In this document: positions 4,923-29,340 of the stretch, one piece after another
Numbering within the stretch: the stretch's first letter is position 1
Layout of the letters: each line of letters begins with the position of its first letter
DNA from: a virus
Direction: 5' to 3' (one strand)
Length of the DNA stretch: 39,137 nucleotides
IMG/VR virus record: IMGVR_UViG_3300025299_000118
Span: 1-39,137 of that record
Notes under the pieces: model-generated
The model's database searches: none
What the model was told of the DNA's origin: nothing
Seen by the model: only the letters and a program-made list of their open reading frames with translations
Position numbers and translations under genes: made by a program

Positions 4923-5114
4923 TTACGTCCGGGCCGGGTCTCTGCCCAAAGCATCACAGATTTTCTGCCACGATTTTGCGCCCATTCCCTTCATCCGCAA
5001 CGCGTCTGTCGTGGGCACGAGCTTCATGTCGTCTGCGGTCTCATACCCCCGCCGTTTGAGCTCGCCGAGCAGCTTTGGGTTTCTCAGCCCTAAATCTGAA
5101 AGCTTCGTGGTCAT
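4923..5114 (-). CDS. Stand-alone RNA polymerase alpha-CTD-like HhH protein
   Basis: 63 aa. The whole protein fits the helix-hairpin-helix fold of the RNA polymerase alpha C-terminal domain: LSDLGLRNPKLLGELKRRGYETADDM, then LRMKGMGAKSWQKICDAL, matching the consensus DLGL..R..N.LK..GI.T..DL....L..I.G.G.KS..EI...L. No alpha N-terminal domain is present. It could bind DNA or contact sigma or activators and so alter host or phage transcription; that role is inference. Shine-Dalgarno is weak (GCGGGC). Upstream lies the gene-free small-RNA-like region on the opposite strand. Confidence 0.6.
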   Translation of the reverse strand: MTTKLSDLGLRNPKLLGELKRRGYETADDMKLVPTTDALRMKGMGAKSWQKICDALGRDPART

Positions 5115-5199
5115 GCCCGCATCAGATCAGGCTTTCGCTCGACACGCAATTTGTAGGATTCTCCAAGAGGCTCGGAACTAATCGCCGCATGTGATAGTC

Positions 5200-5294
5200 T
5201 TAGAACGAGCCCGAGCATCCCTTCCCTCCGCGAGGGCTCACTTGGCACAGCACACGCTTCGGCCCCGATGGTTGCTCTTTGGGGCCATTTTTTT
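5200..5294 (+). ncRNA. Candidate small RNA 1: C/U-loop hairpin plus terminator
   Basis: Within a 430-base stretch lacking a convincing gene, GAGCCC (5207-5212) pairs with GGGCTC (5234-5239), leaving a loop that shows CCCTTCCCTCC, complementary to Shine-Dalgarno sequences. About 20 bases later GGCCCC (5261-5266) pairs with GGGGCC (5281-5286) followed by ATTTTTTT, a good intrinsic terminator. An extended -10-like TGATAGTCT ends at about 5200; no good -35 was seen. This is the general layout of rhizobial small RNAs with anti-SD loops, but no named family is claimed. Confidence 0.35.
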
Positions 5295-5359
5295 GAAGGC
5301 AGGAACCATTCTCGTGTGCCGGCGTTTTCCCCTTGTCCTAACCCGCTTTGCACGATCGG

Positions 5360-5450
5360 GCAGGCACAGAGCTTCACAAAGTCCCCAGTGAAGTCTCTTC
5401 GATAAGCGCCTCTGGCCTCGCCGTCTCCGTACGACGAGGCCTTCATTTTG
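5360..5450 (+). ncRNA. Candidate small RNA 2: hairpin plus terminator
   Basis: CTTCAC (5372-5377) pairs with GTGAAG (5388-5393) around a loop containing GTCCCC. It is followed by a strong hairpin, GGCCTCG (5414-5420) with CGAGGCC (5435-5441), extended by three inner pairs across one mismatch, then TTCATTTTG. The order repeats that of the unit just upstream. Alternatively these are only the 3' end of a longer transcript or the leader of the permease gene at 5547. Confidence 0.3.
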
Positions 5451-5546
5451 TGCTATCCCGAAATGTGGTGAAAACTTTGCTCCGTCCTGATCCTTGAGTT
5501 CCGGATCATGGGACAGTAGAAAGTGCGCCGTTGAACCGAGGTGCAC

Positions 5547-6314
5547 ATGTATCTGCGAACTCACATCCAAGTTGTAAGCGCCCTTCTTGTCCGCGAGGTG
5601 ACGACGCGGTACGGCGGGAAGCCCGGCGGCTACATATGGGCAATCCTCGAACCCACCTCTTACATTGTTATGATGACGCTGGTGGTCGGCGGACTTTCTC
5701 ACCACCCTGCCCTTGGAACGAGTTTCAGCGAATTCTTCGCAACAGGATATCTCAGCTTCTTCTTCTACGCCGGCAGCGTCGCATACCTCACATCGGCTGT
5801 ACGCGCTAACAAGACGCTTCTGAGCTACCCGAACGTCGCCCCCATCGACACGATTGTTGCTCGCGTCATCGTCCAGACGCTTACGACAACCCTGGTATGC
5901 GTCCTAGTTTTTAGCGTCATAATCCTCACTCTTCGAGAACCGGTGTTCATTCAGTGGCAGTATATCCTGCAGTCGGTGGCGGCCACGACCGTTCTTGCAG
6001 CGGGGATGGGCCTCGCAAACTCGGCACTCGCCCCTAAATTCCCCCTCTATGAACAGATCTTCAACATCATCACGCGGCCGTTGATGATCCTCTCCGGCGT
6101 GATGTATCTTCCGGATTTGCTCCCGCATCCCTTTCGCGACATTCTTCTCTGGAACCCCTTGGTTCACTCGACAATGCTGTTTCGAGAGGGTTTTTACCCC
6201 GAGTATCGAGCGACGGAGTTGAGTACCACGTACATGTGGTACTTCGCTCTGGCGGTGTTCGTAATGGGCAATTTGATCTTCACGTTGAGTCGAAGCATCC
6301 TCCGCAACGACTAA
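5547..6314 (+). CDS. ABC-2 type capsule polysaccharide export permease (RkpT/KpsM-like)
   Basis: 255 aa from the ATG at 5547, chosen because GAGG lies 5 bases upstream; a GTG at 5541 is in frame. REVTTRYGGKPGGYIWAILEP near the N terminus matches the signature of KpsM/Wzm-type polysaccharide export permeases, and about six hydrophobic segments follow (YIVMMTLVVGG, SFFFYAGSVAYL, VIVQTLTTTLVCVLVF, SVAATTVLAAGMGLANSAL, LMILSGVMYLPDLL, WYFALAVFVMGNLIF). Such permeases need an ATPase partner (KpsT/RkpS); none is in the window, so it must use a host ATPase or be inactive. It ends at an intrinsic terminator. In a prophage flank it could modify surface polysaccharide and phage sensitivity (inference). 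Confidence 0.85.
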   Translation: MYLRTHIQVVSALLVREVTTRYGGKPGGYIWAILEPTSYIVMMTLVVGGLSHHPALGTSFSEFFATGYLSFFFYAGSVAYLTSAVRANKTLLSYPNVAPIDTIVARVIVQTLTTTLVCVLVFSVIILTLREPVFIQWQYILQSVAATTVLAAGMGLANSALAPKFPLYEQIFNIITRPLMILSGVMYLPDLLPHPFRDILLWNPLVHSTMLFREGFYPEYRATELSTTYMWYFALAVFVMGNLIFTLSRSILRND

Positions 6315-22761: not shown

Positions 22762-23060
22762 GCGAGCGTCGGGTCCCGGCGCCCACAAAGCAGGTTTGTC
22801 ACCGCGGCTGATAGAGGCTCCTCCTCCTCGTCCCAAAGGTTCCTTGCGACGATCAGGGTTGCTGCACGAACGTCGTCCGGAGCGTTCTCTTCAGTCCAAG
22901 GATCAGCCTCCCGCTTCACATGCCGCAGAACGATGAGAGAAGCGCGATCGGCGAGTTTCTGAAACTGCGGCGCCAGAGGATCGTTGATCGCCCCGGTTTC
23001 GTCTCGACCGAGCCCAAGGCGCAGCTGGAAATCGAGATCGTCGAGGGAAACAAGCGCCAT
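22758..23060 (-). CDS. Head-tail connector (gp6-like adaptor)
   Basis: 100 aa, helical. VSLDDLDFQLRLGLGRDE and RASLIVLRHVKREADPW, then VRAATLIVARNLWDEEEE, match HK97 gp6/GTA gp6-like connector proteins that sit under the portal. Tightly packed with the closure gene (4-base overlap) and the collagen-like gene (1-base overlap). Confidence 0.85.
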   Translation of the reverse strand: MALVSLDDLDFQLRLGLGRDETGAINDPLAPQFQKLADRASLIVLRHVKREADPWTEENAPDDVRAATLIVARNLWDEEEEPLSAAVTNLLCGRRDPTLA

Positions 23061-23794
23061 CAGCGTGCCTCCGCCGGCAGACCGACGCGAACAGGCGCGG
23101 ACGGCTTCACCTCTTTAGCGGTGCCATCCTTACCGTCGCGGCCCTTCTTCGCAGCAAGCGTCCAGTGCTTGGTGCTACTGTCGGGCTTCTCGGTCGTTTC
23201 GTGGGCGTCGCAGTGCCAGAGGCTTCCGCCCCAGGTGACCGTATCGCCCTTGTTGTAGGTGCCCTCCCGGTAGACACCACGATAGATCATGGCCGGGATG
23301 CCGAGCTCAACCTTGAACGACTGGTCAGCGCGCTCGAAAGACAGAAGCACCGTGCGGCCATCATCCATTAGCGTGGCGTCGAAATCCGAGAGCGAGAAGC
23401 CATCCTTGCCTGGCTCACCGTCTTTGCCGACGACCTTGCCAAGGTTGTAGGGGATCCCATTCGTCGCCGTCAAAATGAGGTTCCCGTCGCGATCGATCAC
23501 TGCGCCGGCGAGCCCGATACCATCATTGCCAGGCTCGCCATTCTTCGCTGTCGGCAGCGCAGATACTTGCCGCTCCACCGCCTCGGACACGAGAGTGTCA
23601 AAATCCGGCAAGTCAGGTGGAATCACGATCGACTCTACCGCGGATTTAAGGTCAGCGAGTTCTTCGCCGAGGTCGTGCGGCATCGGCAACGCGTCGAGGC
23701 GACGTTCCAACGCTTCGAGCCGCTCCGCTATCGGGTCCAACTGCGCCTTCACGATGCCGGCAAGTTCTAGTCCAAATGCCTTGGCGTCAATCAT
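23060..23794 (-). CDS. Collagen-like, CBM-like phage head protein
   Basis: 244 aa. Residues 1-80 contain a helical coiled coil (LAGIVKAQLDPIAERLEALERRLDALP). Short Gly-X-Y tracts follow at about 86-94, 123-133 and 218-224 (GEPGNDG, GKDGEPGKDG, GRDGKDG). Residues 171-212 (YRGVYREGTYNKGDTVTWGG, then LWHCDA and KHWTLA) look like the small CBM5/12-type carbohydrate-binding fold. Its place between portal and connector is unusual; a head-surface fibre or decoration that binds cell-surface sugars is plausible but inferred. Confidence 0.75.
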   Translation of the reverse strand: MIDAKAFGLELAGIVKAQLDPIAERLEALERRLDALPMPHDLGEELADLKSAVESIVIPPDLPDFDTLVSEAVERQVSALPTAKNGEPGNDGIGLAGAVIDRDGNLILTATNGIPYNLGKVVGKDGEPGKDGFSLSDFDATLMDDGRTVLLSFERADQSFKVELGIPAMIYRGVYREGTYNKGDTVTWGGSLWHCDAHETTEKPDSSTKHWTLAAKKGRDGKDGTAKEVKPSAPVRVGLPAEAR

Positions 23795-25179
23795 GCCGCG
23801 AGACCCTTCTGAAATGCCAGCATTGCCTCGGCGACGAAGGCGCGCTGTTCCGATTGTGCAAGCGCTGCCGCATCATCGGAGTTGGTTTTCTGGTCCGCAG
23901 GCGCGGCTACGGGAGCACGATCAGACGAAGAGGATGTATTGAATGGATCGTCTTGCGCATCGCGCTTGGCCAGCGCCTGAAGACTGAAGTTCTGCTGCTG
24001 AAGGTAGACACTGGCGCCGCCAGTGACTGGCTTAAGGTCCAGTTTCCGCCGCTTCTCATCGATCGTCATGATGCCGGAGGCCTTATCAAGGGTTTCCATC
24101 AGGGAAACGCTGTCCATCCGGAGGAGCCCGTCGAGATCGAATTCGGTACCGAGCGATTCACCGGTGCCGAGGCCTTCATCCAGGCAAAGCTCGATGTCTT
24201 CGATCAGCCGCTGCAGGCACTGCGAATAATATTCGACGTTCAGGCTCTGGACGTTGTTGTTCGTCGGCGTCTGCCCGACGCCAATCTTGTAGGGCGGGAC
24301 GTGATAGGTCGAGCAGATCACCTCGCCAGACCATTTCAGCTGCTCGATAAGCTGGCTGTCGATGGCCTTAGCCTTCATCGCCTCGTACTTCAGCCCATCG
24401 CCGAGAACGGCAACTTTGCCAGAGTTCTTTCCAGCGAAATTGGTGTCCCAGTATTCTTTGAGCCGCTTGGCGGTGTCATCCTCGATCGCCCCCGGCGCGG
24501 TGAGCACACCGCCGGGCTGCGCACCGTTCCGGAAGAACATCGTGCTGTCGTTCTGGATCGCCAGACCCTGCATGGCAGCAAGGCCGCCGGCAAAGATCGG
24601 AGACAGGCCGACCAAGGGATGGAAGAAGCAGTTGAATCGGTCGTGGATGATCTCGCGCGCGGGGACGATCACAGCCTGCTCGACGCCGCTCAGGGCATCA
24701 GTGTTCAGCTGGTAGAATACCGCACCACTGTCGGAGACGAGTGGTGTGACGAGATCGGGGTTCAGGACATAGAGCTTGACCACGACGCCGCGGCCGTCGC
24801 GCTGTTTCAGCACATAGGCGTTGCCGCGCTGCAGCTTCGACAGCACCCAGCTTTCCATGAACTGAATGCGGGTCTGCCAGTCGTTCGGCTTGCGCAGCAC
24901 CGGCGAATAGGCAGGGTTCGACGTCTCGGACCAAATCCCGTCGCTGTCCTTCGCCACCAGTTTGATACGAAGCTTAGCGATGTCCGAAGCGATCAGCGTC
25001 CGGCAGGCGAAGTCAGCGTGATTGGACAAGACCGAATCGAACTTGACTTCGACGTCGTGTTGCCATGCGCCCGGAAAGCTTTCCAGGATTGACCACCATC
25101 CCCGACCGCCCTGTGCGGGAGGCGAAAGTGCCTTCTCGACCGCTTTTGCGCGGGAGATGTTGAACCCGAACAGGCGCAT
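23791..25179 (-). CDS. Portal protein (HK97 family)
   Basis: 462 aa. LSNHADFACRTLIASDIAKLRIKLV, LRKPNDWQTRIQFMESWVLSKLQRGNAYVL and GLSPIFAGGLAAMQGLAIQNDSTMFFRNGAQPGGVL are the family signature segments, and STYHVPPYKIGVG is the conserved late motif. The C-terminal 60 residues are low complexity (SSSSDRAPVAAPADQKTNSDDAAAL). It forms the dodecameric DNA channel at one head vertex. Start overlaps the preceding stop codon (TGATG). It lies after the capsid gene, opposite to the common portal-protease-capsid order. Confidence 0.95.
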   Translation of the reverse strand: MRLFGFNISRAKAVEKALSPPAQGGRGWWSILESFPGAWQHDVEVKFDSVLSNHADFACRTLIASDIAKLRIKLVAKDSDGIWSETSNPAYSPVLRKPNDWQTRIQFMESWVLSKLQRGNAYVLKQRDGRGVVVKLYVLNPDLVTPLVSDSGAVFYQLNTDALSGVEQAVIVPAREIIHDRFNCFFHPLVGLSPIFAGGLAAMQGLAIQNDSTMFFRNGAQPGGVLTAPGAIEDDTAKRLKEYWDTNFAGKNSGKVAVLGDGLKYEAMKAKAIDSQLIEQLKWSGEVICSTYHVPPYKIGVGQTPTNNNVQSLNVEYYSQCLQRLIEDIELCLDEGLGTGESLGTEFDLDGLLRMDSVSLMETLDKASGIMTIDEKRRKLDLKPVTGGASVYLQQQNFSLQALAKRDAQDDPFNTSSSSDRAPVAAPADQKTNSDDAAALAQSEQRAFVAEAMLAFQKGLAA

Positions 25180-25463
25180 CAGTTCGCATCCTTTGCCTCT
25201 GCGATCTTTGATCGAAGTGCATCTGCGTCCCAGCCGTGGAATGGCCGCTTGCCAGAGACTTCCTGATATTTTTTGCGCAGAGCCGCCAGATCGTCGACTG
25301 GGGCGCGGACGAGGACCGAGCGCTTGTGAGCACCGGCGCCCGCCGGCGCAGCCTTTTTGACGGCGATCAGTACGCGGGCTTCACGGTCTGACGCTTCGAA
25401 TGCGTCTCCCGGAAGAAGACGGCGGGTTCCATAGGTCAGATGGCGGTTGGCAATCAGTTTCAT
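25179..25463 (-). CDS. Small head protein with HeH/SAP-like C terminus
   Basis: 94 aa from ATG 25463, which has GGAG 6 bases upstream; two earlier in-frame ATGs overlap or precede that site. The N-terminal part (LIANRHLTYGTRRLLPGDAFEASDREARVLI) resembles small head-associated proteins that start with a beta strand pair. The C-terminal LRKKYQEVSGKRPFHGWDADALRSKI looks like a short helix-extended-helix/SAP-type DNA-binding element. It may bind packaged DNA or the head interior. It sits between capsid and portal genes. Confidence 0.6.
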   Translation of the reverse strand: MKLIANRHLTYGTRRLLPGDAFEASDREARVLIAVKKAAPAGAGAHKRSVLVRAPVDDLAALRKKYQEVSGKRPFHGWDADALRSKIAEAKDAN

Positions 25464-25519
25464 CTTCATCTCCAGCAGCGGCAAGGAGGCGGGGTCTGAA
25501 ACCCCGCCAACCGTCTCAA

Positions 25520-27478
25520 TTACGGAGTGACCACCGGAGTGCCGTAATCGGCATTGCCGATATAGGCCACGGCAGATGCACGACGCTTCGCGAAGTTCAA
25601 CGGACGTACGACCTTGATGGCGACTGAATCCGTCTGGAACATCGACACGACGCTGGCATTTGCCGTCGGGGTGTCGGAGGCCCCGTTCGGGGCATCATCC
25701 ATCTGGATTGCCGCCTCGGTGGAGAGGGAGACTTCCACGCCACGGTCGCCGATCTTGTAGATGTCGGACGGCTTCAGCAGGATGAAGTCGCCGGCGCCGA
25801 CGTTGCCACCGGCAACCAGGGTATCGCCGAGGAGCGTGCCGCCGTTCGCCGACAGCCCCGGGAATGCGAAGTTGCCCATGACGTTCTGAATGAGCCCCAG
25901 CGCCTTCGACAGCGATTGCGTGGTGACGAACTGCAGGCCGTCGGCATTATTCGCCGCGATGAAGCCCGCATAGAGCGCCTTCACGTCTGCAATGACGCCT
26001 TCGATGTCCGGGCCCGCGCTGGTGCCGGCCGTGAGACCGTTGAGGATACCCGCAGGGGATACGCCAGCAGATGCGGCTGCCGTTCCGAGGAACGTCTGAT
26101 CGACGCGCTGCCCGGAGGCGTTGACCAAAGCGTCGCGCACCAGCTTCTCAGCCGCCGGCGAGGAGTCTCGGAGCAGTTCCTTCGAGACCACGGCAAGAGC
26201 CGCAACCTTCAGGGGCGTGAGGTTCACGTCGAAGAAATCAGCCTTGCTGACCGGGATCGATTTGGACTGGCCGACCCAGTAGCCGGTCGCCGCGCCGTCC
26301 TGGCCGGCGATGTTGACGTTTGCCGGCACCTCGCGCAGCGGCAGCTTGTCGAACACGGTACGGCTGTACAGGTAGTCGATGAAATCGCCGGTGTAGCGGT
26401 CGATGTGCACCAGCTCTGCGCCCCACTCTCCGGAATCCGTGCCGCCACCAGCGACAGCAGCCTTGATGCTCTCGACAAGCTGCGGATTGCTGCGGCCCCA
26501 GCGCTTGTGAGCCACGCCGACGGCCGACATGTCGTCGATGCGTGCCAGGGTCTTGGCGATCACCATGCGGGTGTAGTTCTGACCCTCGAAGGCCTCGTCT
26601 TTGTCGCCCTTGATGACAACCGGGGCGCCCGTACGAGCAGCGGTGCCGGCAGCGGCCGTTTTGATCGCGCCCGGGATTACTGGCTTCGCCGAGAGCGCCT
26701 GCGTCTTTTCCAGAGCACGAAGACGCTTGAGGTCGCCGTCGATCGCATCAACTTCGCCTTCGAGGGTATCGAACTCTTCCTGTTCGGCCTGGTCGGTCGA
26801 ACGACCTTCTTCCATGGATTTCTGCATGACTTCGGCCATGCGTGCGGCCTTCGCCTGACGGGAGGCTTCCAGCGCCGCGATCTGTTCAGCAATGGTCTTC
26901 ATAGCTGGGTTTTCCTTGATCTTGAGATTGACTGAGTGCTTCGATTTTCCCGCAGCGCCGGGAGCGACAGGCCGATCGTCCGCCTTCGGCTCTTTGCCAG
27001 ACGCGGCGAGCAGAGGGCGGTCGATCGACTTGATGGTAGAGATCACCGCGTCGGCATTGGCCGGCACGGAGACGAGAGAGAGCTCCAGGACCTCAGTGGA
27101 AATGAAACGGATACCGCCGTCATCCATCCAGGAATGCTCGAGCGAGCGAAAGCCGATCGAGACCGCGCGCACGAGTCCGGCCTTGAGTTCGCCCCAGGCG
27201 GTTTCGATGCGGTCGCGCAACGGCCCGGCGTCGTCGATCTTCGGCAGCTTTGCCTCGAACGTGATGCCGTTCTTGGTCGGCTTGTCAAAGGTGACCGTTC
27301 CGACCGGCTTGTCGTGATCGTGCTGGTGAAGGAGCGGCATCGGGTTCTTGAAACGGACGCCCAAGGGCTCCACGATATCGCCGACACGGTCCGGATTCGG
27401 CGTCGTGGCGACGCCGCGGATAACGCGCTCCTCTTCCTCGACCGCTTTCACGGTCAGGACCGAATACATCCTGTTCAT
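25520..27478 (-). CDS. Fused prohead protease and major capsid protein
   Basis: 652 aa, one uninterrupted frame. Residues 1-155 are the HK97 gp4-like (U35) protease: LLHQHDHDKPVG with the catalytic histidine, GLVRAVSIGF with Ser107, and LELSLVSVPANADA. Residues 193-270 form a coiled-coil scaffold (delta-like) domain, and the rest is the HK97 capsid fold (IDYLYSRTVFDKLPLREV, YWVGQSKSIPVSKADF, LAVVSKELLRDSSPAAEKLVRDAL, MGNFAFPGL, FILLKPSDIYKIGDRGVEVSLS). The protease normally removes scaffold from capsid; here both start as one chain. An internal ATG at 26902 (Met193) with AAGGA 10 bases upstream could also give a separate 460-residue capsid precursor. Confidence 0.9.
   Translation of the reverse strand: MNRMYSVLTVKAVEEEERVIRGVATTPNPDRVGDIVEPLGVRFKNPMPLLHQHDHDKPVGTVTFDKPTKNGITFEAKLPKIDDAGPLRDRIETAWGELKAGLVRAVSIGFRSLEHSWMDDGGIRFISTEVLELSLVSVPANADAVISTIKSIDRPLLAASGKEPKADDRPVAPGAAGKSKHSVNLKIKENPAMKTIAEQIAALEASRQAKAARMAEVMQKSMEEGRSTDQAEQEEFDTLEGEVDAIDGDLKRLRALEKTQALSAKPVIPGAIKTAAAGTAARTGAPVVIKGDKDEAFEGQNYTRMVIAKTLARIDDMSAVGVAHKRWGRSNPQLVESIKAAVAGGGTDSGEWGAELVHIDRYTGDFIDYLYSRTVFDKLPLREVPANVNIAGQDGAATGYWVGQSKSIPVSKADFFDVNLTPLKVAALAVVSKELLRDSSPAAEKLVRDALVNASGQRVDQTFLGTAAASAGVSPAGILNGLTAGTSAGPDIEGVIADVKALYAGFIAANNADGLQFVTTQSLSKALGLIQNVMGNFAFPGLSANGGTLLGDTLVAGGNVGAGDFILLKPSDIYKIGDRGVEVSLSTEAAIQMDDAPNGASDTPTANASVVSMFQTDSVAIKVVRPLNFAKRRASAVAYIGNADYGTPVVTP
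26902..26917 (-). promoter_or_regulatory. Possible internal ribosome start for capsid precursor
   Basis: AAGGA lies 10 bases before an in-frame ATG at the scaffold boundary (MKTIAEQIAALEA), so capsid could be made in excess over protease without splitting the gene. Spacing is slightly long. Confidence 0.35.
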
Positions 27479-27492
27479 GTTTGGATTCCTCG

Positions 27493-29340
27493 CTACCCGA
27501 AGACCAGCATCTGGTATCGTTTTTCGACCTGGCCGCCCTCGTAGGAGTGGGCGGCACCGACGGCCATTGCCAGAGCGACAGCGGCGTCGATCTTGTTCGT
27601 TGCCTTGGCCTTATCCAGCCAATAGTTGCCCCAACGGTCTTCGTCCGTAACGGCAGACATCATCGCTGAAATCAGCACCGGATTGCGCCGGAGCCGAATG
27701 CGGCCCTCCGCAATTGCGTCTTCCAGGTCTCGCACCGATCCTGGCATCCACAAGCCCTCTGGATCCCGCTTGCCGGCCTTTGCCGCCTCGGTCATCGCCT
27801 CGGTAGGCTTGCCCTTCTTCGTGCCCCCCTGCGGGTGTTCAACGAACTCGACGGAGATGCCGAGCTTGTCGCACTCCGGCTCGAAACCACGCTTGAAGGC
27901 GTATCGGTCGTAGGCCACGCACTTCACATCGAAGTCGTGCGCGTATTCGGCCACCGCCTGCGCGACGTGATCGAAGCGGATGCTCGATCCCTTCGGCGCA
28001 TGGAGGTGCTTGCCCTTCACCCACACCGAATAGGGCTGTCGATCGGTGATCTCGCGCGCGGCCATGGTGTCGCGCGGCGTCCAAGCTTCCACCCAGGCGT
28101 CAAAGGTCGGTTTCGTGACCTTCTGAACTTTCCCGTCACGGACCGCTTCGACCTCGACTTCGCCAGTCCGGACACACGCGGCGAGCGCTGTGATGTCCTT
28201 GTTCTGCGAAAGGTCCAAGCCGAGCCAAACCGGCTTGTTGAAGTGCTCCGCGATCTCGAAATCAGCGATGCACGGCTCAAGGGCGGCGCGCGTCATCCAG
28301 GCCGTCTCCGCGTCCGTCCAAACGCAAAAGTGAAGCCGGAGGATGTTGTTCAGTTTCGAAGGGATGTCCTTCGCCTGCTTCACGACGCCGGCCAGATACT
28401 CCTCCGTGATCGTCGTGTTGAGCAACGGATTTGCCTTCGGCCAGCACGAAGGGTCGTTCAGCGGGTCATCGTCGACGTCCAGCGCACAAACATACGAGAA
28501 GGCTGTGTCGTCGAGCGCCTCGCCGAGGTAGTGCGCGTCACCGTCCTTTGCATCCCGGTTGCCGGCGGCAACGCGCACAGCGTGTTCGTGTTCTGCCCAG
28601 CAAGCCGAGTTTCGATCCGAACCGCTGTTCGTGATCATCAGCAGAAGAGGCTGCCGACGAAACTTAAAACCACGCTCGAGCATTTCGATGATGCCGCCGT
28701 CGGCATGCTCGTGGAGTTCGTCGACCAGCGCCATGTGCGGCCGAGGACCGGATCCGGTTTTCTTCGTTTCCCTAGAAACCGGGCGGAAGAACGATCCCTT
28801 AGCCAGATAGGCGAGGTTGTATTCCTTCCCGGGCGAGCCGCTGCGCTTGAGGCGCTTGTCGAGATCCGGCGACTTGTCGACCATCTTGACGGCATCGCGG
28901 AACAGAATTCCGGCCTGCTCTTTGGTGGCGCCCGCCGAGTAGATTTCGGCACCGGCTTCACCGTCCGCCATCATGCCGTAGAGGCCGATACCTCCGGCCA
29001 GCGGCGATTTACCGTTGCCCTTGCCTTGCTCGATGTAGGCACGCCTGAAACGCCTCCACCCGTCGAGCCTCTTCCATCCGAAGAGCGACCCGATGATGAA
29101 GTCCTGCGCCGGGTGCGAGCGGAACGGCCGACCCTCGAACTGTCCTTCCGAGAGCTTCAGCTTCTCCTCGAAGAACCGGATGCCCTTCGCAGCTGCGGTC
29201 TCGTCAAAATGCAGATCGTCTCGCCTCAGATCGTCGATGTGACGGTGGCACGCGTTTCGCACGTGGGGCCCGGCAACGATCTTCCCGGCGACAACCGCTT
29301 CCGCGTAAGCCGTGGCGCGGTCAGTCTTCAAAGAACTCAT
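27493..29340 (-). CDS. Terminase large subunit
   Basis: 615 aa, Terminase_1/HK97 gp2 type. Walker A QGKGNGKS (about 105-112), adenine-side GATKEQAGILFRDAV and Walker B MALVDELHEH (203-212) define the packaging ATPase; the C-terminal nuclease shows WLGLDLSQNKDITA with the first acidic residue and a late KIDAAVALAMA segment. It cuts concatemers and drives DNA into the head through the portal. Start overlaps the small subunit gene by 20 bases. Confidence 0.95.
   Translation of the reverse strand: MSSLKTDRATAYAEAVVAGKIVAGPHVRNACHRHIDDLRRDDLHFDETAAAKGIRFFEEKLKLSEGQFEGRPFRSHPAQDFIIGSLFGWKRLDGWRRFRRAYIEQGKGNGKSPLAGGIGLYGMMADGEAGAEIYSAGATKEQAGILFRDAVKMVDKSPDLDKRLKRSGSPGKEYNLAYLAKGSFFRPVSRETKKTGSGPRPHMALVDELHEHADGGIIEMLERGFKFRRQPLLLMITNSGSDRNSACWAEHEHAVRVAAGNRDAKDGDAHYLGEALDDTAFSYVCALDVDDDPLNDPSCWPKANPLLNTTITEEYLAGVVKQAKDIPSKLNNILRLHFCVWTDAETAWMTRAALEPCIADFEIAEHFNKPVWLGLDLSQNKDITALAACVRTGEVEVEAVRDGKVQKVTKPTFDAWVEAWTPRDTMAAREITDRQPYSVWVKGKHLHAPKGSSIRFDHVAQAVAEYAHDFDVKCVAYDRYAFKRGFEPECDKLGISVEFVEHPQGGTKKGKPTEAMTEAAKAGKRDPEGLWMPGSVRDLEDAIAEGRIRLRRNPVLISAMMSAVTDEDRWGNYWLDKAKATNKIDAAVALAMAVGAAHSYEGGQVEKRYQMLVFG

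Follow-up and report, generated by a model that had tools for sequence, protein, structure and literature searches.

Analysis of a 39,137-nucleotide stretch of viral DNA (IMG/VR record IMGVR_UViG_3300025299_000118; here called the window) revealed an open reading frame (ORF) on the minus strand (25520 to 27478) that is, in all likelihood, a nested gene for two proteins in one frame, with a 652-aa protease-bearing fusion as the minority product and a 460-aa capsid precursor as the second product. The shell protein on its own is very probably made from the second start, and capsid would presumably be in excess over protease. Protease-capsid fusion is already known as a kind from PHROG 617, from the PAJU2 record, and from thaumarchaeal proviruses; the internal start is the new part. 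The features of the locus are as follows.

27487 to 27491, minus strand: GAGGA, Shine-Dalgarno (SD)-like site of the full-length (protease) start ATG at 27478, from the sequence; SD energy, -6.4
25520 to 27478, minus strand: protease-delta-capsid fusion ORF; open frame, Pfam, PHROG 617
27032 to 27343, minus strand: Peptidase_S78 domain, residues 46 to 149; Pfam; H53 and S107 are unchanged throughout the alignment of 56 fused proteins
26903 to 27043, minus strand: unstructured linker, residues 146 to 192, carrying the putative internal ribosome-binding site; AlphaFold2 pLDDT of <50 over residues 146 to 193
26913 to 26917, minus strand: AAGGA, SD-like site of the putative internal capsid start, 10 nt upstream of the ATG
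26900 to 26902, minus strand: ATG codon of M193, the putative internal start; all 123 fused representatives have a start at or near the aligned position
25520 to 26902, minus strand: predicted product of the internal start, a nested capsid precursor of 460 aa and 47.8 kDa made up of the delta domain and the HK97-fold capsid; profile and Foldseek matches
26693 to 26893, minus strand: delta (scaffold) domain formed by two long helices (residues 196 to 262); AlphaFold2 model, homology to residues 4 to 67 of 9gyi_B
26600 to 26689, minus strand: unstructured stretch, residues 264 to 293, likely maturation cleavage region and approximate mosaic junction; AlphaFold2 model and DNA comparison
25562 to 26320, minus strand: Phage_capsid core, residues 387 to 639; Pfam, Foldseek to HK97-fold capsids

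The ORF is a single open frame of 652 aa (68.7 kDa) without a stop. It opens with a prohead protease of the S78 (U35) type, continues through a disordered linker into a delta (scaffold) domain, and closes with a capsid of the HK97 fold. Pfam analysis placed both Peptidase_S78 (PF04586) and Phage_capsid above their cut-offs (34.9 bits versus 21 and 67.7 bits versus 24.2, respectively), which confirms the claim of an earlier note on this DNA that protease and capsid lie in one frame. The HK97-type major capsid model TIGR01554 was also passed (68.2 versus 27.5 bits), and residues 2 to 644 aligned to positions 10 to 625 of the PHROG 617 profile (626 positions, "major head protein") with an E value of 1.1e-122. 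The invariant residues H53 and S107 are those that we take to be the active-site His and Ser of the S78 protease. The fusion ORF missed the equivalog cut-off of TIGR01543 (42.0 versus 59 bits), and by this model the predicted protease is not of the HK97 gp4 equivalog type.

An AlphaFold2 model was generated from an alignment of 56 fused proteins (mean pLDDT, 72; pTM, 0.49). The model revealed an ordered protease, an unstructured region (residues 146 to 193), helices (196 to 262), a second unstructured stretch (264 to 293), and then the capsid core. Foldseek comparison of the capsid part revealed resemblance to the HK97-fold capsids of Bxb1, R4C, HK97 Head II, and D3 (matches include 2ft1 and 9d9x). 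The earlier note had placed an internal ATG, with AAGGA 10 bases upstream, at the scaffold boundary. Both the spacing (first base of M193 at 26902) and the location proved correct: M193 closes the linker with a pLDDT of <50, and the delta helices begin at residue 196, so that the putative internal start coincides exactly with the beginning of the delta domain. Profile comparison aligned residues 4 to 67 of a stand-alone PDB "Major head protein" (9gyi_B) to residues 8 to 73 of the internal product. Judged by its length and domain order, the predicted 460-aa product is a canonical HK97-type capsid precursor.

Relatives were gathered by scanning with the fusion protein of the window, or with alignments of it, as seed; the best 80 of 481 and the best 80 of 593 candidates were taken, and the sample is therefore not random. 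Profile classification of 212 sequences yielded 148 fused genes, 20 genes split by an in-frame stop, and 36 split into another frame; five sequences without a protease, two without a capsid start, and one unclassified sequence were left out, and 204 were kept. Removal of near-copies resulted in 163 representatives, of which 123 were fused and 40 consisted of two genes (13 in-frame and 27 other-frame splits). Full-length fused relatives were present in phage records, GTDB genomes, and IMG/VR. A closely related gene, 92% identical, is carried by a prophage of Sinorhizobium medicae USDA1037 (L001). A sequencing error that hides a stop between the domains, which the earlier note had named as a possible objection, is ruled out by these many independent fused relatives. 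The same note's statement that normal HK97-type phages keep separate genes was too strict, since fused forms are common and recognized as such (PHROG 617 and the NCBI models NF045540 and NF045541).

The neighbors of the ORF in the window form the usual head module, with the terminase upstream (27493 to 29340) and a small gene (25179 to 25484), the portal gene (23791 to 25179), and head-tail genes downstream. The portal gene (minus strand) matches positions 29 to 442 of the PHROG 2271 profile and overlaps by 4 bases the gene that follows it (23060 to 23794, minus strand), whose match lies at the extreme C-terminal end of the portal proteins of PHROG 2271 (profile positions 682 to 857 of 859). 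From these matches, the two genes look like another case of a pair that other phages carry as one fused gene and the window carries split. Two further observations were made in relatives. The capsid gene of a split relative, Stenotrophomonas phage SOVA965 (L053, 3181 to 4586), is recorded as two annotated pieces that overlap and lie in different frames, for which a frameshift, a sequencing error, or something programmed are candidates. In Rhizobium phage RHph_X2_26 (L052), an SGNH hydrolase-type gene (4928 to 6142) is located between capsid and portal.

To compare the internal start across relatives, start codons were chosen by nearness to the profile start; the SD was not used in the choice. 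All 123 fused representatives had a start codon (114 ATG, 8 GTG, and 1 TTG) at the aligned site or close to it. In 111 of them, it lay no more than two codons from the first position of the profile; an ATG falls that close to a randomly chosen in-frame position of the fused genes with a chance of 11%. The SD energy at the internal site averaged -8.13 and was -5 kcal/mol or better in 110 of the 123, compared to a mean of -2.48, with 16% at -5 or better, for the 1,713 remaining in-frame ATGs of these genes. The SD was weaker than -5 in 13 fused relatives, and five of the 123 (L031, L032, L033, L077, and L208) kept the internal ATG with no SD motif by the motif list used. The fold energy of the 50 nt around the internal start was -8.5 kcal/mol versus -14.0 kcal/mol elsewhere in the gene, and the fold was weaker in 120 of 123 representatives. 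All 40 split representatives carried a start codon of the capsid gene at the aligned place (37 ATG and 3 GTG); in the four annotated splits inspected (SOVA965 and the Moraxella phages Mcat9, Mcat4, and Mcat7), the deposited capsid start is the aligned codon.

If the full-length fusion were the only product, it would assemble as such, every subunit would begin with a protease, and the protease domain would cut itself off. The single open frame is compatible with this scheme, as is the unstructured linker, which could be cut. Nevertheless, the scheme is improbable, because it does not account for the joint conservation of a start codon, an SD, and weakly structured RNA at a single site, nor for the coincidence of that site with the capsid start of the split relatives.

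The SD at the internal site was written in all three codon phases (87/22/9) and by 41 different tripeptides. It is therefore the signal in the RNA that is conserved, and not the peptide. Shuffling of synonymous codons gave a mean of -6.39 (standard deviation of replicate means, 0.20), and none of the 200 shuffles reached the observed mean. Taken gene by gene, the observed SD was seldom better than that of the gene's own codon shuffles (only 5 of 123 were in the lowest 5%), so that the codon signal is a collective one. The median SD was -5 or better in 21 of 21 loose protein clusters, which shows that the signal is not confined to one lineage. Pairwise synonymous conservation at the internal site was not clearly raised (0.62 to 0.65 versus 0.48 to 0.63 elsewhere). 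Taken together, the comparison strongly supports the internal capsid start as an evolutionarily maintained signal.

The distribution of both gene designs was studied on a capsid tree of 160 rows, from which three short rows had been dropped (FastTree; long branches are unsure). The fused or split label changes at least eight times on this tree, and six changes are forced by well-supported (starred) branches. The starred clade that holds the window is a mixture of 17 split and 11 fused rows (28 in total), and most of the fused rows fall into a large clade that is predominantly fused (92 of its 98 rows). The split relatives in the clade of the window would fit the idea that the internal start is a relic of a separate-gene ancestor and is no longer important. 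This idea is very unlikely, since the start is kept in fused relatives that are only about 40 to 60% identical and that differ in peptides and codon phases, since most fused rows belong to the mainly fused clade, and since the synonymous choice favors the SD.

DNA comparison revealed that the window is mostly 70 to 100% identical to the fused relatives L047 and L023 through the protease, the linker, and the delta domain. From about 240 nt past the internal ATG, the identity to these relatives drops to near 50%, and the capsid body of the window is 71 to 86% identical to that of the split phages L015, L021, L039, and L004. The window is therefore a mosaic, with protease and delta domain from a fused lineage and a capsid body nearest to split phages. 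This pattern of identity indicates that protease and delta domain travel together. By its position, the mosaic joint is near the expected cleavage region.

SD-like sites within genes have been proposed to pause ribosomes. A pause of this kind at the internal site could let the protease domain fold before the capsid is made, with no start involved. A pause needs no start codon, yet ATG, GTG, or TTG was found in 123 of 123 fused representatives, and the SD spacing was typical of a start (7 to 10 nt in 92 of 118); there is accordingly only a slight chance that pausing explains the site. Conservation of a K-E-G-like linker peptide for a protein reason, such as a cleavage site, with the SD likeness arising by chance, can practically be dismissed: amino acid choice does carry much of the SD signal, as the average of the synonymous shuffles attests, but the many tripeptides and the three codon phases that encode the SD, and the contribution that codon choice adds beyond all 200 shuffles, speak against it.

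The nested-gene reading leads to the following mechanism. Ribosomes at the first start (27478) would produce the 652-aa protease-delta-capsid fusion, and ribosomes at the second start (26902) would produce the 460-aa delta-capsid protein, which would serve as the bulk shell subunit. The fusion would be a minority subunit whose own delta and capsid parts carry the protease into the prohead by coassembly. The protease may then cut after the delta domain, around residues 264 to 293, thereby freeing itself and trimming all subunits. The internal start, which the earlier note had suggested as a way to make excess capsid, is backed by the start codon, the SD, the open RNA, and the capsid starts of the split relatives. 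The excess of capsid is an inference, and the internal SD of the window is no stronger than that of the protease start: SD energies were -5.4 for the internal start and -6.4 for the protease start. The fold energy of the 50 nt around the start was -8.9 kcal/mol at the internal start versus -14.2 kcal/mol at the protease start, and many relatives have a far stronger internal SD (about -12). With SDs about equal in the window, a less structured internal start, and stronger internal SDs in many relatives, the ratio of the products is not readable from sequence alone. A rule that the internal SD is always stronger than the protease SD was not seen, as it was stronger in only 70 of 119 relatives.

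Other protease-capsid fusions were analyzed in a survey of 398 Pseudomonadota genomes. Nineteen long S78 frames were taken. Four of them (L299, L303, L307, and L317) turned out not to be fusions in the chosen frame and were removed ahead of counting; the other 15 are fused to a capsid by Pfam. To pass the junction test, an ORF had to have a start, in the interval from -10 to +60 residues around the protease end, whose SD energy was -5 or better. Such a start was found in 14 of the 15 ORFs, compared to 17 of 76 equal control windows further on. The fusions of this survey include those of 508 to 542 aa (L300 to L302) and NF045541-type genes with the Phage_capsid_4 model. The NF045540 profile, which describes a ClpP-like prohead protease/MCP fusion, matched in 388 of the 398 genomes, and only the seven genomes above the cut-off were used, with one locus each (L325 was below the cut-off). 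In six of these seven ClpP-like fusions, the end of the protease is closely followed by a weakly structured site with an ATG and an SD energy of -5 or better. The ATG is located at a shared (E/D)F..|MP motif; the junction peptide is fairly constant in this set, and its SD could partly reflect the protein. Two ORFs lack a clear junction start, failed the junction test, and are negative cases for a general rule of nested fusions, namely, L306 from the S78 survey and L324 from the ClpP-like set. A profile-based pass over NF045541 revealed a start codon at a linker column in 15 of 29 distinct ORFs, with an SD of -5 or better in 14 of the 15; the variable linker aligns poorly, and the other 14 ORFs were counted neither way.

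The occurrence of the same arrangement with a nonhomologous protease points to a shared need, probably one of protein ratio. Because NF045540 and NF045541 have related capsid parts, their internal starts may descend from one. We lean toward the view that protease-capsid fusion genes in general are nested. The capsid would keep its own ribosome start whatever the protease (S78 or ClpP-like), and the fusion would act as a dosing device, in which the long form brings the protease into the shell as a set minority and the short form builds the shell. A single stop codon could then switch fused and split forms without changing the products.

PHROG 617 has the domain order and length of the window protein, and its phage members, including ORF003 of Pseudomonas phage PAJU2 and PP_55 of Escherichia phage JLK-2012, are about 38 to 41% identical to it over 99%. 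Genes of the PAJU2 and JLK-2012 types have the same internal start with an SD. In contrast to the reading proposed here, the fused PHROG 617-type records inspected are annotated as single products with the second start unannotated; the PAJU2 ORF003 record reads "prohead protease fused capsid protein." NF045541, a prohead protease/MCP fusion (about PHROG 4523), resembles the window in that S78 is fused to capsid with an internal ATG and SD at the junction, whereas it is a distinct family that matches Phage_capsid_4. Membership of the window ORF in NF045541 was rejected (41.7 bits versus a cut-off of 525, over residues 43 to 249 only). NF045540 shares protease-capsid fusion with the window, and its protease is nonhomologous by family name. 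The HK97 gp4 protease and gp5 capsid share the S78 protease, the delta domain, and the HK97 fold with the window; in HK97 itself, they are encoded by separate genes. In-frame internal starts inside a head protease gene occur in lambda C/Nu3 and Mu I/Z, where the nested product is scaffold only, while that of the window would be a whole capsid precursor. Neither an internal capsid start in protease-capsid fusions, nor a whole capsid as nested product, nor a rule across kinds of fusion was found described in the literature searched, most subscription papers lying outside it. In the accessible text of one report, the thaumarchaeal proviruses Nvie-Pro1 and NCAV2-Pro1 have a protease fused to an HK97-type capsid, and related thaumarchaeal proviruses have both fused and split forms; unlike the reading for the window, that text makes no mention of an internal start (PMC6563490).

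A fused gene faces the problem that a 1:1 ratio puts a protease on every shell subunit, to which a nested start would be a simple answer. The results suggest that many fused major capsid proteins are annotated without their true main product. This bears on annotation and on the reading of virion proteomes, in which the virion subunit would be expected to derive from the second start. The comparison also indicates that the two-gene design and the putative single nested gene have replaced each other repeatedly in evolution.
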